A model generated the notes under the pieces. It did no database searches, was not told where the DNA came from, and saw only the letters and a list, made by a program, of their open reading frames with translations. Source: Lentilactobacillus rapi DSM 19907 = JCM 15042 (GTDB taxonomy: Bacteria; Bacillota; Bacilli; Lactobacillales; Lactobacillaceae). Taken from it: DNA of 64,000 nt. The DNA lies in NCBI RefSeq assembly GCF_001436255.1, contig NZ_AZEI01000076.1:1-64000 (forward strand), given 5' to 3'. Position numbers and translations under genes: made by a program. Within the stretch, counting starts at the first letter, position 1; every line of letters begins with the position of its first letter. Of this stretch, positions 7,143 to 51,356 are shown one piece after another.

Positions 7143-8792
7143 TTGGGTAATCAAGATCGAAACCGCTCGGATATTTCCAGAGATAAAATGCTGTCCGGAT
7201 CCGCTTGGATGACGGCTGGAAGCATTTTGAGTCGTTTCTTGGGGGCAGTGTACATTATTCCTTGGAGCATTTGGTTCGGGAATTATTTCTTACGCGGGAA
7301 TGCGCTTTATGGACTTGGCTATAATATATATAGTTTCTTTCTAATTGTTGCCATCGCGGGGATTCCGTCTGCGATTGCCAAGCAAGTTGCCCATTACAAT
7401 GCTTTAAATGAATATGGCGTCGGGGTCCGTTTATACAAACGCGGACTAGTGTTGGCCGTTTCGACCGGAGTTGTTTCAGCCGCTGTCCTTTATTTTGGCG
7501 CCCCGTTAATTGATGGTGGCAACCCAAATGTGATTCCTGTTTTGCATTCGTTGGCTTGGGCAATTTTGATTATTCCAACAATGAGTTTAACCAGGGGGTA
7601 TTTTCAGGGTTATCAACAGATGGCGCCCTCAGCAATTTCTCAATTCGTTGAGCAGTTGGTTCGGGTAATCTATATGCTGGTAACGGCTTTCCTGATCATG
7701 CAGGTCTTTCACGGCGATTGGGTGAAGGCCGTCTCACAGTCCACGTTTGCGGCGTTTGTGGGAGCTGTTGCTGGGATGCTCACCTTAGCCTGGTATTATC
7801 TAAGGCGTCGAGAAGATTTTCGTTCATTGATCGCTCATAGTAACAATCAACTGAAGGTGGAGCCTAAAGCGCTGTATCAAGAAATTATTGTTCAAGCAGT
7901 CCCGTTCATTATCTTAGGGGCCGGCATTACAATTTTTATGTTGATCGATCAGTTCACCTTTTTCAAAGTGATGAAGCTGGCAACCAATTATTCCAATAAC
8001 ATGCTTTCAGATTTATATGCATTATTTGCGGTTAATGCCAACAAGCTGATTATGATCACAATCTCTTTGTCATCTGCTTTGGCGATTACAGCGGTTCCTT
8101 TGCTGTCAATTGCGCTCACAAATGGGGATCGGCGGGAAATTTCCAGGCAGAACTCAAATGTGTTAACCCTCTTCTTATTCGTGATGATTCCCGCTGCATT
8201 AGGGATGTGTGCCATTTCTGGACCGCTTAACCGATTATTTTACGGTCAAGCTCAGCAAGCCCTCGGCGCAAATCTATTGACGTTCTCATCGATTATCTCC
8301 ATTCCAATGGGGTTATTTGTTGTAACTTCTGCCATGATGCAGGGGTTATCACAAAATAAGCGGGCAGTTAAATTCTTCGCCATTGGTACAATTGTGAAGC
8401 TCATATTTCAGTGGCCGTGTATTTATTATTTAGGTTCATTTGGTCCACTGATTTCAACTGGACTTGGCTTAGGCGTCGCAAACTGGTTAATCATTCGCTC
8501 ATTGAATCGACAATTTGGGTTCGACCGGCGAATGCTCGATATTGGATTTCGAAAAATCGCAAAATATTCATTGTTCATGTATGCTGCATCGCTTATGACG
8601 GTGTATGCCGCTAATTTTTTACTTAAATTCGTCGCGGATCCATTTGACCGAATCCCGAGTCTGATCGTGACGATACTAGCTGTTGCCGTAGGTGGTTATA
8701 TTTACATCTATTTGGCCCTTAAGAGCCGAGTGGCAGATATGATTTTGGGAGCACGAACCGAAAAATTAAGAAAATTATTGAGAATTCCGTAA
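7143..8792 (+). CDS. MOP-superfamily lipid flippase (MurJ/YtgP-type)
   Basis: 549 residues with about 14 hydrophobic segments. The N-terminus, SGSAWMTAGSILSRFLGAVYIIPW, fits the polysaccharide-transport branch of the MOP superfamily that includes YtgP/MurJ and SpoVB. Members flip lipid-linked intermediates such as lipid II across the membrane. Whether this paralogue carries lipid II or another wall precursor cannot be decided here. The start is a TTG with GTAGGA upstream; the ATG 14 codons later is a possible alternative, but the acidic/basic leader before it is also seen in relatives. Transcription is convergent with nnrD. Confidence 0.85.
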   Translation: MGNQDRNRSDISRDKMLSGSAWMTAGSILSRFLGAVYIIPWSIWFGNYFLRGNALYGLGYNIYSFFLIVAIAGIPSAIAKQVAHYNALNEYGVGVRLYKRGLVLAVSTGVVSAAVLYFGAPLIDGGNPNVIPVLHSLAWAILIIPTMSLTRGYFQGYQQMAPSAISQFVEQLVRVIYMLVTAFLIMQVFHGDWVKAVSQSTFAAFVGAVAGMLTLAWYYLRRREDFRSLIAHSNNQLKVEPKALYQEIIVQAVPFIILGAGITIFMLIDQFTFFKVMKLATNYSNNMLSDLYALFAVNANKLIMITISLSSALAITAVPLLSIALTNGDRREISRQNSNVLTLFLFVMIPAALGMCAISGPLNRLFYGQAQQALGANLLTFSSIISIPMGLFVVTSAMMQGLSQNKRAVKFFAIGTIVKLIFQWPCIYYLGSFGPLISTGLGLGVANWLIIRSLNRQFGFDRRMLDIGFRKIAKYSLFMYAASLMTVYAANFLLKFVADPFDRIPSLIVTILAVAVGGYIYIYLALKSRVADMILGARTEKLRKLLRIP

Positions 8793-8800
8793 AATATAGT

Positions 8801-8900
8801 GGGATAAAAGCTGTGATAAACGGCTGCTCCCGGCCATTTAAGGGAGTGGTCCAAATATCCAATTTCAGGACATTCGGATCACTCCCTGATGTTCTGAAAG
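8801..8900 (-). repeat. Hairpin repeat element, copy D
   Basis: In minus-strand sense it begins just past the nnrD stop. The stem GGGAGTGATCC(GAATGTCC) pairs with (GGATATTT)GGACCACTCCC around loop TGAAATT (plus positions 8842-8886). The 3' flank TTAAATGGCCGGGAGCAGCC, followed by a CAGCTTTTATCC box, is nearly the same as in copies A and B, but the stem sequence is entirely different. In this sense the imperfect pairs are two G.U wobbles and one A.C mismatch. No T run follows, so it is not an ordinary terminator. Confidence 0.75.
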
Positions 8901-9746
8901 CTAACCGGTGATTGTTCCACGCGCTTGATTTTTAAACATGAATTCTGGTAGTGCTTCGCTGATTTGATGTGGCAAGACCACGTATTGTTTTCTTGCCAGT
9001 TCATCAGCAATCGCACTGTGGGTATACACCGCCGCCAAAACGGCTTGGTCTTTATTTTCAAACTGAGCAGTAAAGCCGCCAATGAGCCCAGCTAATGTAT
9101 CTCCCATGCCACCAGTTGCTTGAGCAGGGGTTCCACCCGTGTTTTCATAAACTTGATCATTTACGCAAACTTGCGTGCGATGGGATTTAACAACCACAAT
9201 TGCATTAAGTTTTTTAGCGGCAGCCAGGTTCGCAGCAGCTGTTTGGTCAGCAATTTTAATCCCAGAGACCCGTTGCCATTCCATTTGGTGGGGAGTCAGC
9301 ACGTTTAGCGATTCCTTTGGCAGCGACAACTTGTTACTGGCAATTAATGTCAGGGCTGAGCCATCAATGACGAATACCTGGCCAGTTTTGGCTAGCGCAA
9401 AAGTTTTTTTCAAAAGGGCTAGTGCCTGATCGCTTGTTCCAAGTCCTGGACCAATCACAACGACGTTTGCGGCGGAAATGATCGGTGCAGCTTTTTCGAA
9501 TTCGTTATCATCAACAAACATCGCTTCAGGCAACCAGTCGTGAAGGCTTGATTGATTGGTGGGATTGGTAACGGTGGTCACTAACCCAGCTCCGCTATAA
9601 ACTGCGGCTAGTGAGGCCATGATGATTGCGCCGCCAAAGTTTTGACTGCCGCCAATCAGGACGATTTTTCCATAGGTACCCTTGAAACTGTTGGCAGGCC
9701 GGTTTCTGATAACTTTCGGTAAAATTGTTTTTGTTATTTTTTCCAT
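8901..9746 (-). CDS. nnrD: ADP-dependent NAD(P)H-hydrate dehydratase
   Basis: 281 residues of the YjeF C-terminal/ribokinase-like fold. It converts damaged NAD(P)H hydrate back to NAD(P)H using ADP. Visible signatures are GKIVLIGGSQNFGGA near the N-terminus, VVIGPGLGTSD, VLTPHQMEW, and the GGMGDTLAGLIGG nucleotide-binding loop near residue 220. No epimerase (NnrE) domain is fused. The second ATG (9746) is preferred to the one at 9755: GGGAG stands only one base before the first and about ten before the second. It stands alone, convergent with the flippase gene, with hairpin repeat D directly after its stop. Confidence 0.92.
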   Translation of the reverse strand: MEKITKTILPKVIRNRPANSFKGTYGKIVLIGGSQNFGGAIIMASLAAVYSGAGLVTTVTNPTNQSSLHDWLPEAMFVDDNEFEKAAPIISAANVVVIGPGLGTSDQALALLKKTFALAKTGQVFVIDGSALTLIASNKLSLPKESLNVLTPHQMEWQRVSGIKIADQTAAANLAAAKKLNAIVVVKSHRTQVCVNDQVYENTGGTPAQATGGMGDTLAGLIGGFTAQFENKDQAVLAAVYTHSAIADELARKQYVVLPHQISEALPEFMFKNQARGTITG

Positions 9747-11828: not shown

Positions 11829-12015
11829 AGACTGGGGCAATAGGCGTTTTGAGCCCAGAATTTAACGAAGAGAACCAATTATTCCTGATTTTGGAATAAT
11901 TGGTCCTTTTCGTTAAATGGCCGGGATCAGCCGTTTGGCGCAGCTTTTACCCAAGTGGCTAGGGCGATCTAAGTGAATGATCATCGATTGAAAAGTAATA
12001 TATGCCCCGGCCTCC
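11829..12015 (+). repeat. Hairpin repeat element, copy A (long form)
   Basis: About 187 bases, 74 bases after the usp stop. The central hairpin at 11861-11917 has two 25-base arms with 24 pairs (one of them G.U) and one A.C mismatch, around loop TGATTTT. Outside it, TGAGCCC (11850-11856) faces GGGATCA (11923-11929). Imperfect terminal arms CTGGGGCA and TGCCCCGG close the element. It is collinear with copy B over its full length. An upstream hairpin, ACTGGAAT/ATTCCAGT (11786-11816), is a separate possible terminator. Together these fill the 425-base gap between usp and the DUF1835 gene; I see no gene with a ribosome site in it. Confidence 0.8.
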
Positions 12016-14729: not shown

Positions 14730-14832
14730 ATTTAAGGGCAACATTTAAGGGCTTCACCCTGAAATCCTCGTTTTGGATTTTGGGATGAAGCCCTTAAATT
14801 ATGGGATCAAAACATCAATTGTCCCAGTCTTC
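14730..14832 (-). repeat. Hairpin repeat element, copy E
   Basis: In minus-strand sense, just after the pgmB stop, come the boxes AGACTGGGACAATTGATG and TTTTGATCCCA, then a 24-base stem at plus 14744-14798. The stem core GGCTTCATCCC pairs with GGGTGAAGCC around loop AAAACGA, with ATCC/GGAT closing it. TTTAAG and CTTAAA bound the stem as in the other copies. The stem sequence shares nothing with copies A-D. A 10-base duplication ATTTAAGGGC stands at the distal side (14730 and 14743). Confidence 0.75.
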
Positions 14833-30907: not shown

Positions 30908-31094
30908 GAGACTGAGACAATAGGCGTTTTGATCCCAGAATTTAACGAAAAGAACCAATTATTCCTGATTTTGGAATAGTTGGTTCTTTTCGTTAAATGG
31001 CCGGGATCAGCCGTTTGGCGCAGCTTTTATCCAAGTGGCTACAGCGATCCAAACGAATAATGACTGATTGGAAATTAATATATGTCCCAACCTC
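30908..31094 (+). repeat. Hairpin repeat element, copy B (long form)
   Basis: 187 bases. The terminal arms GAGACTGAGACA and TGTCCCAACCTC are imperfectly complementary. The central hairpin at 30941-30997 has two 25-base arms, all 25 positions paired (one U.G), with loop TGATTTT. TGATCCC (30930-30936) pairs with GGGATCA (31003-31009) outside it. After the hairpin comes GCCGTTTGGC, a possible small stem. Alignment with copy A is collinear with scattered substitutions and no large gap. Confidence 0.8.
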
Positions 31095-39533: not shown

Positions 39534-39560
39534 TTTAAATCTAAATAACTAACTAACTGA

Positions 39561-39650
39561 GAGACTGGGAGTCCGCTTTGATCCCAGAATTTAACAAGAA
39601 GAACCAATTATTCCTGATATGGAATGGTTGGTTTTTTTGATTAAATTCCG
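39561..39650 (+). repeat. Hairpin repeat element, copy C (short form)
   Basis: It begins 27 bases after the argS stop with AGACTGGGAGTCCGC and TTTGATCCCAGAA. The hairpin at 39590-39645 has 25-base arms and loop TGATAT; four of the pairs are G.U or U.G in the plus-strand RNA and two positions mismatch. The 3' extension seen in copies A and B is missing. A TTTTTTT run inside the 3' arm could give some termination. Confidence 0.75.
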
Positions 39651-39769
39651 TTATTGGCCATTTGAATCAGTTTTTCATCTCTTAAATCCTTTTTAAATTT
39701 TTACATGCCTCTCAAACCTGAATTTCATGTGTGATACAATGTGTAAGTATTTATAAAAGGAGCATGAGT

Positions 39770-42295: not shown

Positions 42296-42395
42296 TGTTT
42301 TTATCCAGATTCTACCGTTTAAGCAATAGCGCAGCCATTCCTGATGTGGAGTGGTTGCGCTATTGGCTTAAATACCTCAAATCCAGTCATTTATG
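42296..42395 (+). repeat. Hairpin repeat element, copy F
   Basis: The hairpin at 42318-42372 runs from TTTAAGC to GGCTTAAA. Its stem core AATAGCGCAGCCATTCC pairs with GGAGTGGTTGCGCTATT, with one bulge and two wobbles (G.U and U.G), and the loop is TGATGT. Upstream TTTTTATCCAGAT echoes the TTTTGATCCCAGAA box. It sits between the ylbF stop and the yhaO ribosome site, so it could form in the yhaO leader. Confidence 0.7.
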
Positions 42396-51277: not shown

Positions 51278-51356
51278 ATAGGATTCTATCTACGCAAATA
51301 TCGCAACCATTCCAAGTTCGAATGATTGCGATATTCGTTTAGATTCTGGAATCAAC
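51278..51356 (-). repeat. Hairpin repeat element, copy G
   Basis: In minus-strand sense: TTGATTCCAGAATCTAAACG, then an 18-base stem CGAATATCGCAATCATTC pairing with GAATGGTTGCGATATTTG (plus 51295-51337), around a loop of seven. Both imperfect pairs are wobbles (G.U, U.G) in the minus-strand RNA and would be A.C mismatches in the plus strand. Unlike the other copies it is not behind a gene of its own orientation; it lies upstream of trmB on the opposite strand. Confidence 0.65.

Follow-up and report, generated by a model that had tools for sequence, protein, structure and literature searches.

The dispersed hairpins of Lentilactobacillus rapi DSM 19907 = JCM 15042 are probably small, non-autonomous mobile elements that encode a folded RNA and have been acquired inside existing hairpins, usually the terminators behind genes. 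This reading draws on the copy number of the family, the covariation of its stems, its location and sense bias, six sites at which a sister species carries a plain hairpin, the reshuffling of stems and tails, the swap of one subfamily for another and the inversion of tips. In an earlier note on the window, the whole 64,000-nucleotide stretch analysed here, a structured 3'-UTR RNA, a MITE-like mobile element and a repeated small RNA had been offered as options, and location, covariation, wobble pairs and plain-hairpin sites indicate that the first two hold together.

The family described in that note is real and extends far beyond its seven copies. The covariance-model search that it had proposed was run with a model, R1, built on 27 sequences from this genome and its relatives, and gave 134 raw matches at E <= 0.01 in the 2.85-Mb genome (87 contigs); 117 non-overlapping places, about one per 24 kb, were left after removal of overlaps, and there were further matches in relatives. 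Allowing up to three mismatches, a search of the genome found the 5' module TTTTGATCCCAGAATTTAA 131 times and its reversed control once, and the tip ATTCCTGATNTTGGAAT 286 times as against 21. Copy B alone, used as a BLAST query, found 74 matches in the genome at E <= 0.01, many of them on the opposite strand because of the palindrome. The idea that the tip is common to ordinary terminators was set aside, as the 13 tip matches in 264 kb fell in R1-found elements (four) and in ORFs (nine).

Within the window, R1 at E <= 0.01 recovered copies A, B, C and D and did not find E, F or G. Copies A, B and C are in the sequence as described, and the minus-sense reading of D and E stands. Comparisons were made with a sister species (G249, about 94% identical; 92-96% over most of the aligning 3-kb loci and the compared window parts), which carries element sequences identical to loci of L. 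dabitei IMAU92037. Copy A (11829..12015, plus strand) is a whole element that the sister species has too, and copy B, which is absent there, is a whole element running from AGACTGAGACA to TGTCCCAACCT (30909-31093) within 30908..31094 on the plus strand, enclosed by a kept stem base AAAGAG / CTC. Copy C (39558..39689, plus), assigned by its R1 match and the sister comparison, has an alpha stem and a degraded 3' part. The sister's copy C is broken in its 3' arm by an IS-like end, GGCTCTTCGTCAACTGTTGTTGG, at a contig end (L340 end, contig C158), and the same end occurs in L177 and L232 as well. Copy D (8792..8927, minus), also an R1 match, has the 3' module and a different stem, and its site holds other sequence in the sister.

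The remaining three lie outside the R1 matches. E (14730..14832, minus) combines the 5' module, with one mismatch, with a long hairpin of a different stem and has no recognisable 3' module, and is best seen as a damaged copy. F (42296..42395, plus) and G (51278..51356, minus) share just a long hairpin with a similar tip and have no clear modules; since both are kept in the sister (96.6% identity over the F region, 94.9% over the G region) and lack convincing flanking modules, they are decayed or stem-only relatives at best. Of the seven copies, four fit the model, and the stem cores that had been called unrelated are so in B, D and E, whereas A, B and C have a common core, alpha. Overlooked in the earlier note were the helix P1 that closes the structure, the target hairpin around the element and the distal 3' region, which ends in TGTCCCAGCC(T). 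The window also holds a T-box leader (RF00230, 109.6 bits) at 2138-2339, ahead of an 813-aa ORF.

The anatomy is best followed in copy B, on the plus strand, where alignment and pairing place the 5' strand of P1 (CTGAGACAATAGGC) at 30912..30925 and its 3' strand (GCCGTTTGGCGCAG) at 31010..31023, with the P2 strands TGATCCC and GGGATCA at 30930..30936 and 31003..31009. The alignment further places a bulge, GTTT, at the P1/P2 junction (30926..30929) and an internal loop with sides AGA (30937..30939) and GGCC (30999..31002), beyond which the predicted fold puts P3, a variable 26-bp stem with the loop TGATTTT (30940..30998). A tail of type 1 closes the element with the right end TGTCCCAACCT (31024..31093). 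In consensus, P1 of 14 bp is followed by a 4-nt bulge (GTTT, GGTT, GCTT or GATT), a 7-bp P2 (TGATCCC/GGGATCA or AGATCCC/GGGATCT), the internal loop AGA/GGCN and a P3 of about 26 bp that runs from ATTTAA to TTAAAT and bears the tip ATTCC-loop-GGAAT. Forty of the 45 readings in which both ends were found measure 169-187 bp; the other five, at 202-232 bp, are nested, doubled, N-holding or outlying.

The 27-sequence alignment covers P1-P3; copies whose 3' part carries an insert, or whose tail is unusual, were left aside. Pairing holds in 92.1% of its 1263 cells, as compared with 36-46% when the partner is slid by one to three columns, a comparison that favours the fold, which was derived from the same sequences. 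Both sides have changed in 30 of the 47 pairs (191 cells). P2 is 100% paired. In P1, which is not part of the main palindrome, pairing reaches 82% and 11 of the 14 pairs show double changes, with several inner pairs failing in many sequences. Copy B has a predicted fold of -73.5 kcal/mol (-43.5 for shuffles; z -8.0) without a second strong hairpin, and a Lentilactobacillus kefiri copy (L220; z -9.9) is predicted to fold as P1-P3 with a second hairpin, GGGGGCUGAGGCAAAAGU..ACUUUUGUCCCAGCCUCC, followed by U5. In L. otakiensis, parakefiri, parabuchneri and kefiri (L163, L169, L200, L221, L104:2137-2274), an optional insert like CCAAGTAGGCTAGGCAAGCGTTGCTGGCCGTCG separates P1 from the CACGTTT motif.

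Two partners are open to the 5' strand of P1 (CTGGGACA), namely its complement within P1 and the right end of the element (TGTCCCAG), so that a switch between the two pairings is conceivable. Against a switch, the two ends gave no sign of coupled evolution, their pairing within copies scoring 8.533 and the consensus 8.529, and 40 of 97 copies have as their next downstream neighbour a gene that is not in sense. As terminal inverted repeats these 11-nt ends are therefore weak, being imperfect and without within-copy pairing beyond the consensus, and the fact that the 5' end also pairs in P1 counts further against such a role.

Parts of the element are exchanged between copies. Two main stem classes, alpha AAAAGAACCAATTATTCC and beta GAAAAAAGTAATGCATTC, are each found with either of two tails: alpha with tail 1 in B, beta with tail 1 in L028, alpha with tail 2 in L024 and L029, and beta with tail 2 in L061 and L087. 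Among 15 orthologous pairs between this genome and the sister, selected because both hold an element, one has whole elements of two subfamilies at the shared site (L136/L006), one differs in its tail (L156/L014) and four have the tip inverted (L135/L015, L134/L053, L147/L055, L144/L036); at a further site (L131/L009) the entire element is inverted between the species. Some copies have replaced the internal loop AGA/GGCC by a perfectly paired AGA/TCT, a mark of palindrome correction, in which one arm is copied to the other. The listed copies of kefiri, parabuchneri and otakiensis mostly have, by eye, the P3 of their own species. Overall, the exchanged stems fit recombination between copies combined with tip inversion and arm correction.

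As palindrome correction alone would yield covariation, the types of mismatch in the stems were counted, with G.T scored like any other mismatch and with 138 of 182 stems used, the rest having no recognisable 3' P2 strand. On the sense strand, the P3 mismatches of 53 distinct stems from this genome comprise 65 G.T, 12 A.C and 14 others, and those of 63 stems from other genomes 82 G.T, 19 A.C and 14 others; the excess of G.T has the same direction in both sets, its significance being inflated by shared ancestry. A mutational strand bias as its source was not supported, as the tails have no such bias: in summed rates, changes leading to G.T (C>T, A>G) amount to 15.2% and those leading to A.C to 17.4% in tail 1 (20 copies), and to 9.3% and 15.5% in tail 2 (14 copies). 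The wobble bias points to selection on the sense RNA fold, and speaks against a palindrome that matters at the level of DNA only.

Under that alternative the covariation would stem from palindrome correction and the RNA would have no role, and the near-perfect arms, the AGA/TCT replacements in several copies and the four inverted tips all count in its favour. Against it stands the preference for G.T; moreover, the internal loop AGA/GGCN stays unpaired in Lentilactobacillus and close genera, as does the bulge more widely, and covariation extends to P1, beyond the main palindrome. A purely DNA-level palindrome is accordingly regarded as improbable.

The elements sit at the 3' ends of genes, mostly in sense orientation. 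For the count of location, 101 of the 131 places with the 5' module were taken, using crude longest-ORF gene calls. After removal of four that overlap an ORF, 97 remained: 40 between convergent genes, where orientation is uninformative, two in divergent gaps, 11 with a neighbour missing, and the rest between co-directional genes. Of these last, 37 are sense and seven antisense (p = 5e-6); one of the seven is the window hairpin G, and two (L004, L252) look like reverse readings of the palindrome. In the 84 cases with a sense gene upstream, the element lies a median of 22 nt beyond its stop codon. In other genomes antisense copies are common, which counts against the proposed reading: 19 sense and nine antisense copies lie between co-directional genes (62 of 73 used), and 10 of the 11 antisense copies listed there have their end no more than 45 nt from the stop codon of an opposite-strand gene. 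The flanks of the 45 readings are A-rich on the left (41% A in the last 12 bases) and T-rich on the right (46% T in the first 12).

Moreover, comparison with the sister species reveals what occupies such sites when the element is missing. The joined flanks of 16 elements with both ends recognisable were searched in the sister, omitting previously matched sites except those within the window. At six of the 16 (B, L028, L087, L243, L011 and L005), the sister has a plain hairpin instead, formed by 21-48 nt beyond the joined flanks. At B, for example, the sister reads AAAGAGC-GGATAGCTTATCACTATCG-GCTCTTTTACTTTG and the present genome AAAGAG-[element]-CTCGTTCACTTTG. The base of the sister's stem is kept around the element in five of the six, L243, which lies in an apparent divergent gap, being not clearly so. 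Four of the sister hairpins are followed by a run of at least four T, L005 by three and L243 by none. Three of the 16 sites are filled in both species (A, L250 and L004, the last with a different, damaged element in the sister), and seven gave no decision, with one half found, none found, or the halves on different contigs. By eye, there is no target site duplication in the six with/without pairs; the hairpin apex has been lost instead.

In keeping with entry into hairpins, flanks of the same copy pair better with each other than shuffled ones (5.70 vs 4.65, sd 0.25; none of 300 shuffles as high), as seen in the 45 readings that include both ends, two sites being represented twice. Further, L026 is nested in the beta-type hairpin stem of another element, between AAGTCAAAAAA and TTTTTTGGCTT, and L002 sits within a 15-bp inverted repeat. 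Since the loss of an element would require a new paired apex, insertion in the lineage of the present genome appears to be the simpler direction.

These sites largely refute a fixed cis-acting RNA, that is, a regulator or attenuator in the 3'-UTR that is immobile and passed on together with its genes. Such an RNA would agree with the strong covariation and the sense wobble bias, with the sense location at gene 3' ends, and with the many orthologous copies in the sister, seen in 15 aligned pairs that were chosen for both holding one. Yet it is at odds with the plain hairpins at six of 16 sites and with a copy nested within another, and the 40 elements between convergent genes are not directly followed by a sense gene that they could regulate. 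A fixed regulator is thus very improbable.

The main rival dispenses with a transposase altogether and supposes that terminators swap apices, by template switching or gene conversion via their shared A-tract and T-tract, the element being simply the fittest apex. The kept stem base with its replaced apex, the whole elements, tails and tips that differ between species at one site, and the orientation running from A-tract to T-tract are all in its favour. Against it stand the simple hairpins of the window, which are 82-100% identical in the sister at all seven that were mapped out of eight, including hairpin G and one in the T-box leader. With no swapped apex among the seven, a general tendency of terminators to exchange apices is unsupported, and as an explanation of the elements apex exchange keeps a minor though appreciable chance.

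Returning to the preferred reading of mobile elements, a sequence of events can be suggested. The element would enter a hairpin, usually an intrinsic terminator directly behind a gene, whereupon the apex would be lost and the stem base kept, with the element in between; the plain hairpin would then represent the older state. Termination could continue to work after insertion, as the element brings its own strong hairpin and the old A-rich and T-rich base is kept, and this would render the insertion nearly neutral and so explain both location and orientation. Sense copies may have been retained because only the sense orientation leaves a T-run downstream. The sense RNA fold might be selected for termination or for stability of the 3' end, and drift of the stems may come from ectopic recombination and palindrome correction, which would copy one arm to the other while RNA pairing is preserved. 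A bolder variant, and an unlikely one, is that the folded sense RNA is itself the unit of selection and perhaps of copying, spreading through the Lactobacillales by taking over terminator apices, possibly with RNA- or hairpin-templated copying in place of a cut-and-paste transposase, much like a bacterial SINE disguised as a terminator.

The elements appear to be targets themselves, as REP elements are targets of IS insertion. All eight contig ends picked in this genome for a nearby 5' module (L346-L353: C23, C9, C41, C65, C28, C24, C56 and C31) break in or beside a beta-type P3 loop, four at the IS-like end TGAAGTGAACCCC.. and four at TGAACTGAACCCC.., which suggests that IS elements take the loop as a target. 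A search for the IS family of these junction ends found nothing. At three contig ends (C43 start, C53 start, C23 end), TAAGTTTGACTTTCTATAGG is joined to the P1 strand of an element (L055, L019, L017), so another repeat seems to interrupt elements at the left end.

The distribution of the family is wide. R1 matched 82 of the 201 genomes sampled in the Lactobacillaceae, which represent 20 of its 40 sampled genera (E <= 0.001, the present genome included). In the order it matched 55 genomes out of 295, and 39 of these come from six other families. Because scoring in these runs was limited to 16 or 11 candidates per genome, the per-genome counts are lower bounds. A phylum sample gave no R1 match in 298 other genomes, at least two of them of the same order, with 11 candidates each and strict filters. 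In the relatives examined outside the genus, P2 and P3 vary in sequence, and by eye the recurring features are a GAGTG-like start, the bulge region CGNTTAG and the CACGTTT motif. Exact 18-mer matches in Bacteroidota, Enterococcus and a few others, among the matches listed, were dismissed as chance, the rest of the element being missing.

Relatives of the element are also found on plasmids of Enterococcus faecium, E. lactis and Lactococcus, with 110 plasmid records matching one such locus (L311), and on plasmids of L. plantarum and L. kefiri; phage records gave no match to copy B. The E. faecium plasmid NZ_CP027401 carries two different units in tandem, bounded by GTCGTTTATTYGAGAG repeats. R1 matched the second unit of L316 at 35.9 bits and the first partially, at 20.3 bits. 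A closely similar stretch of the Lactococcus plasmid NZ_CP071303 has one unit, which implies gain or loss of a unit (L316:1501-1770 and L317). Separately, tandem arrays of units of about 125 bp with a similar hairpin (GTGAGCG..AAAGCGGTTA..CTGTCCTA) occur in this and other genomes (L060, L010:1714-1958, L111, L123, L314).

It is instructive to compare the family with known repeats. At the gathering score, Rfam release 15 recognised only tRNA and T-box in the window and 18 loci of relatives; the 24 weak hits to copy B at an E-value of 5, mostly microRNA precursors and far below gathering, were discarded as noise of a long hairpin. The view that no described family has this layout therefore holds for Rfam, but less so for EFAR, the Enterococcus faecalis repeats, which are reported to have the same size and mode of insertion. 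EFAR were reportedly described by Venditti et al. in 2007 as a DNA element of one species; most copies are said to be about 170 bp long, intergenic, foldable and modular, with two independent stem-loops, and to be inserted in stem-loops of 24-37 bp, most of which is lost while part of the stem is left at the ends. On this account, the elements studied here would resemble EFAR in size (about 170 bp), modularity and an insertion that loses the apex and keeps the stem base, and would differ in the order-wide RNA fold, the covariation, the wobble bias, the sense location at 3' ends and the exchanged P3. We would call them an EFAR-like, order-wide, RNA-constrained variant, a likeness drawn from reported layout and mode of insertion.

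Unlike a classical MITE, the elements show no target duplication in the six pairs judged by eye. The passages of PMC2267715 drawn on here give Efa-1, which is probably the same as EFAR, a length of 163, 65 members and a pair of adjacent stem-loops. Those of PMC3733652 mention EFAR and describe REPs as palindromes of 20-40 bp in many copies, mostly GTAG- or CGTC-tagged; the present elements are likewise palindromic and numerous, but mostly 169-187 bp long with P1-P2-P3. With BOX, RUP and SPRITE of Streptococcus pneumoniae they have in common that they are short interspersed repeats, and BOX is modular and structured if transcribed, while SPRITE resembles a Rho-independent terminator; terminator-apex replacement and wobble bias set the present family apart from these three as described in the relevant passages of PMC3049150. 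The main text of a MITE review (PMC10969869) contains neither EFAR, Enterococcus nor Lactobacill-, and within the open-access literature, subscription journals being outside its scope, no description of the family in lactobacilli was found.

If the proposed reading is true, EFAR, so far an orphan description from one species, would become part of a family that spans the order and has a defined fold and a model for searches, and the harmless presence of such repeats behind genes would be explained. Further, covariation in repeats may stem from the correction of arms, which the wobble test can separate from selection on RNA, and pairs of species with filled and empty sites offer a way to find the mover. 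Finally, the family would provide a case of a non-coding mobile element whose RNA fold is under selection.
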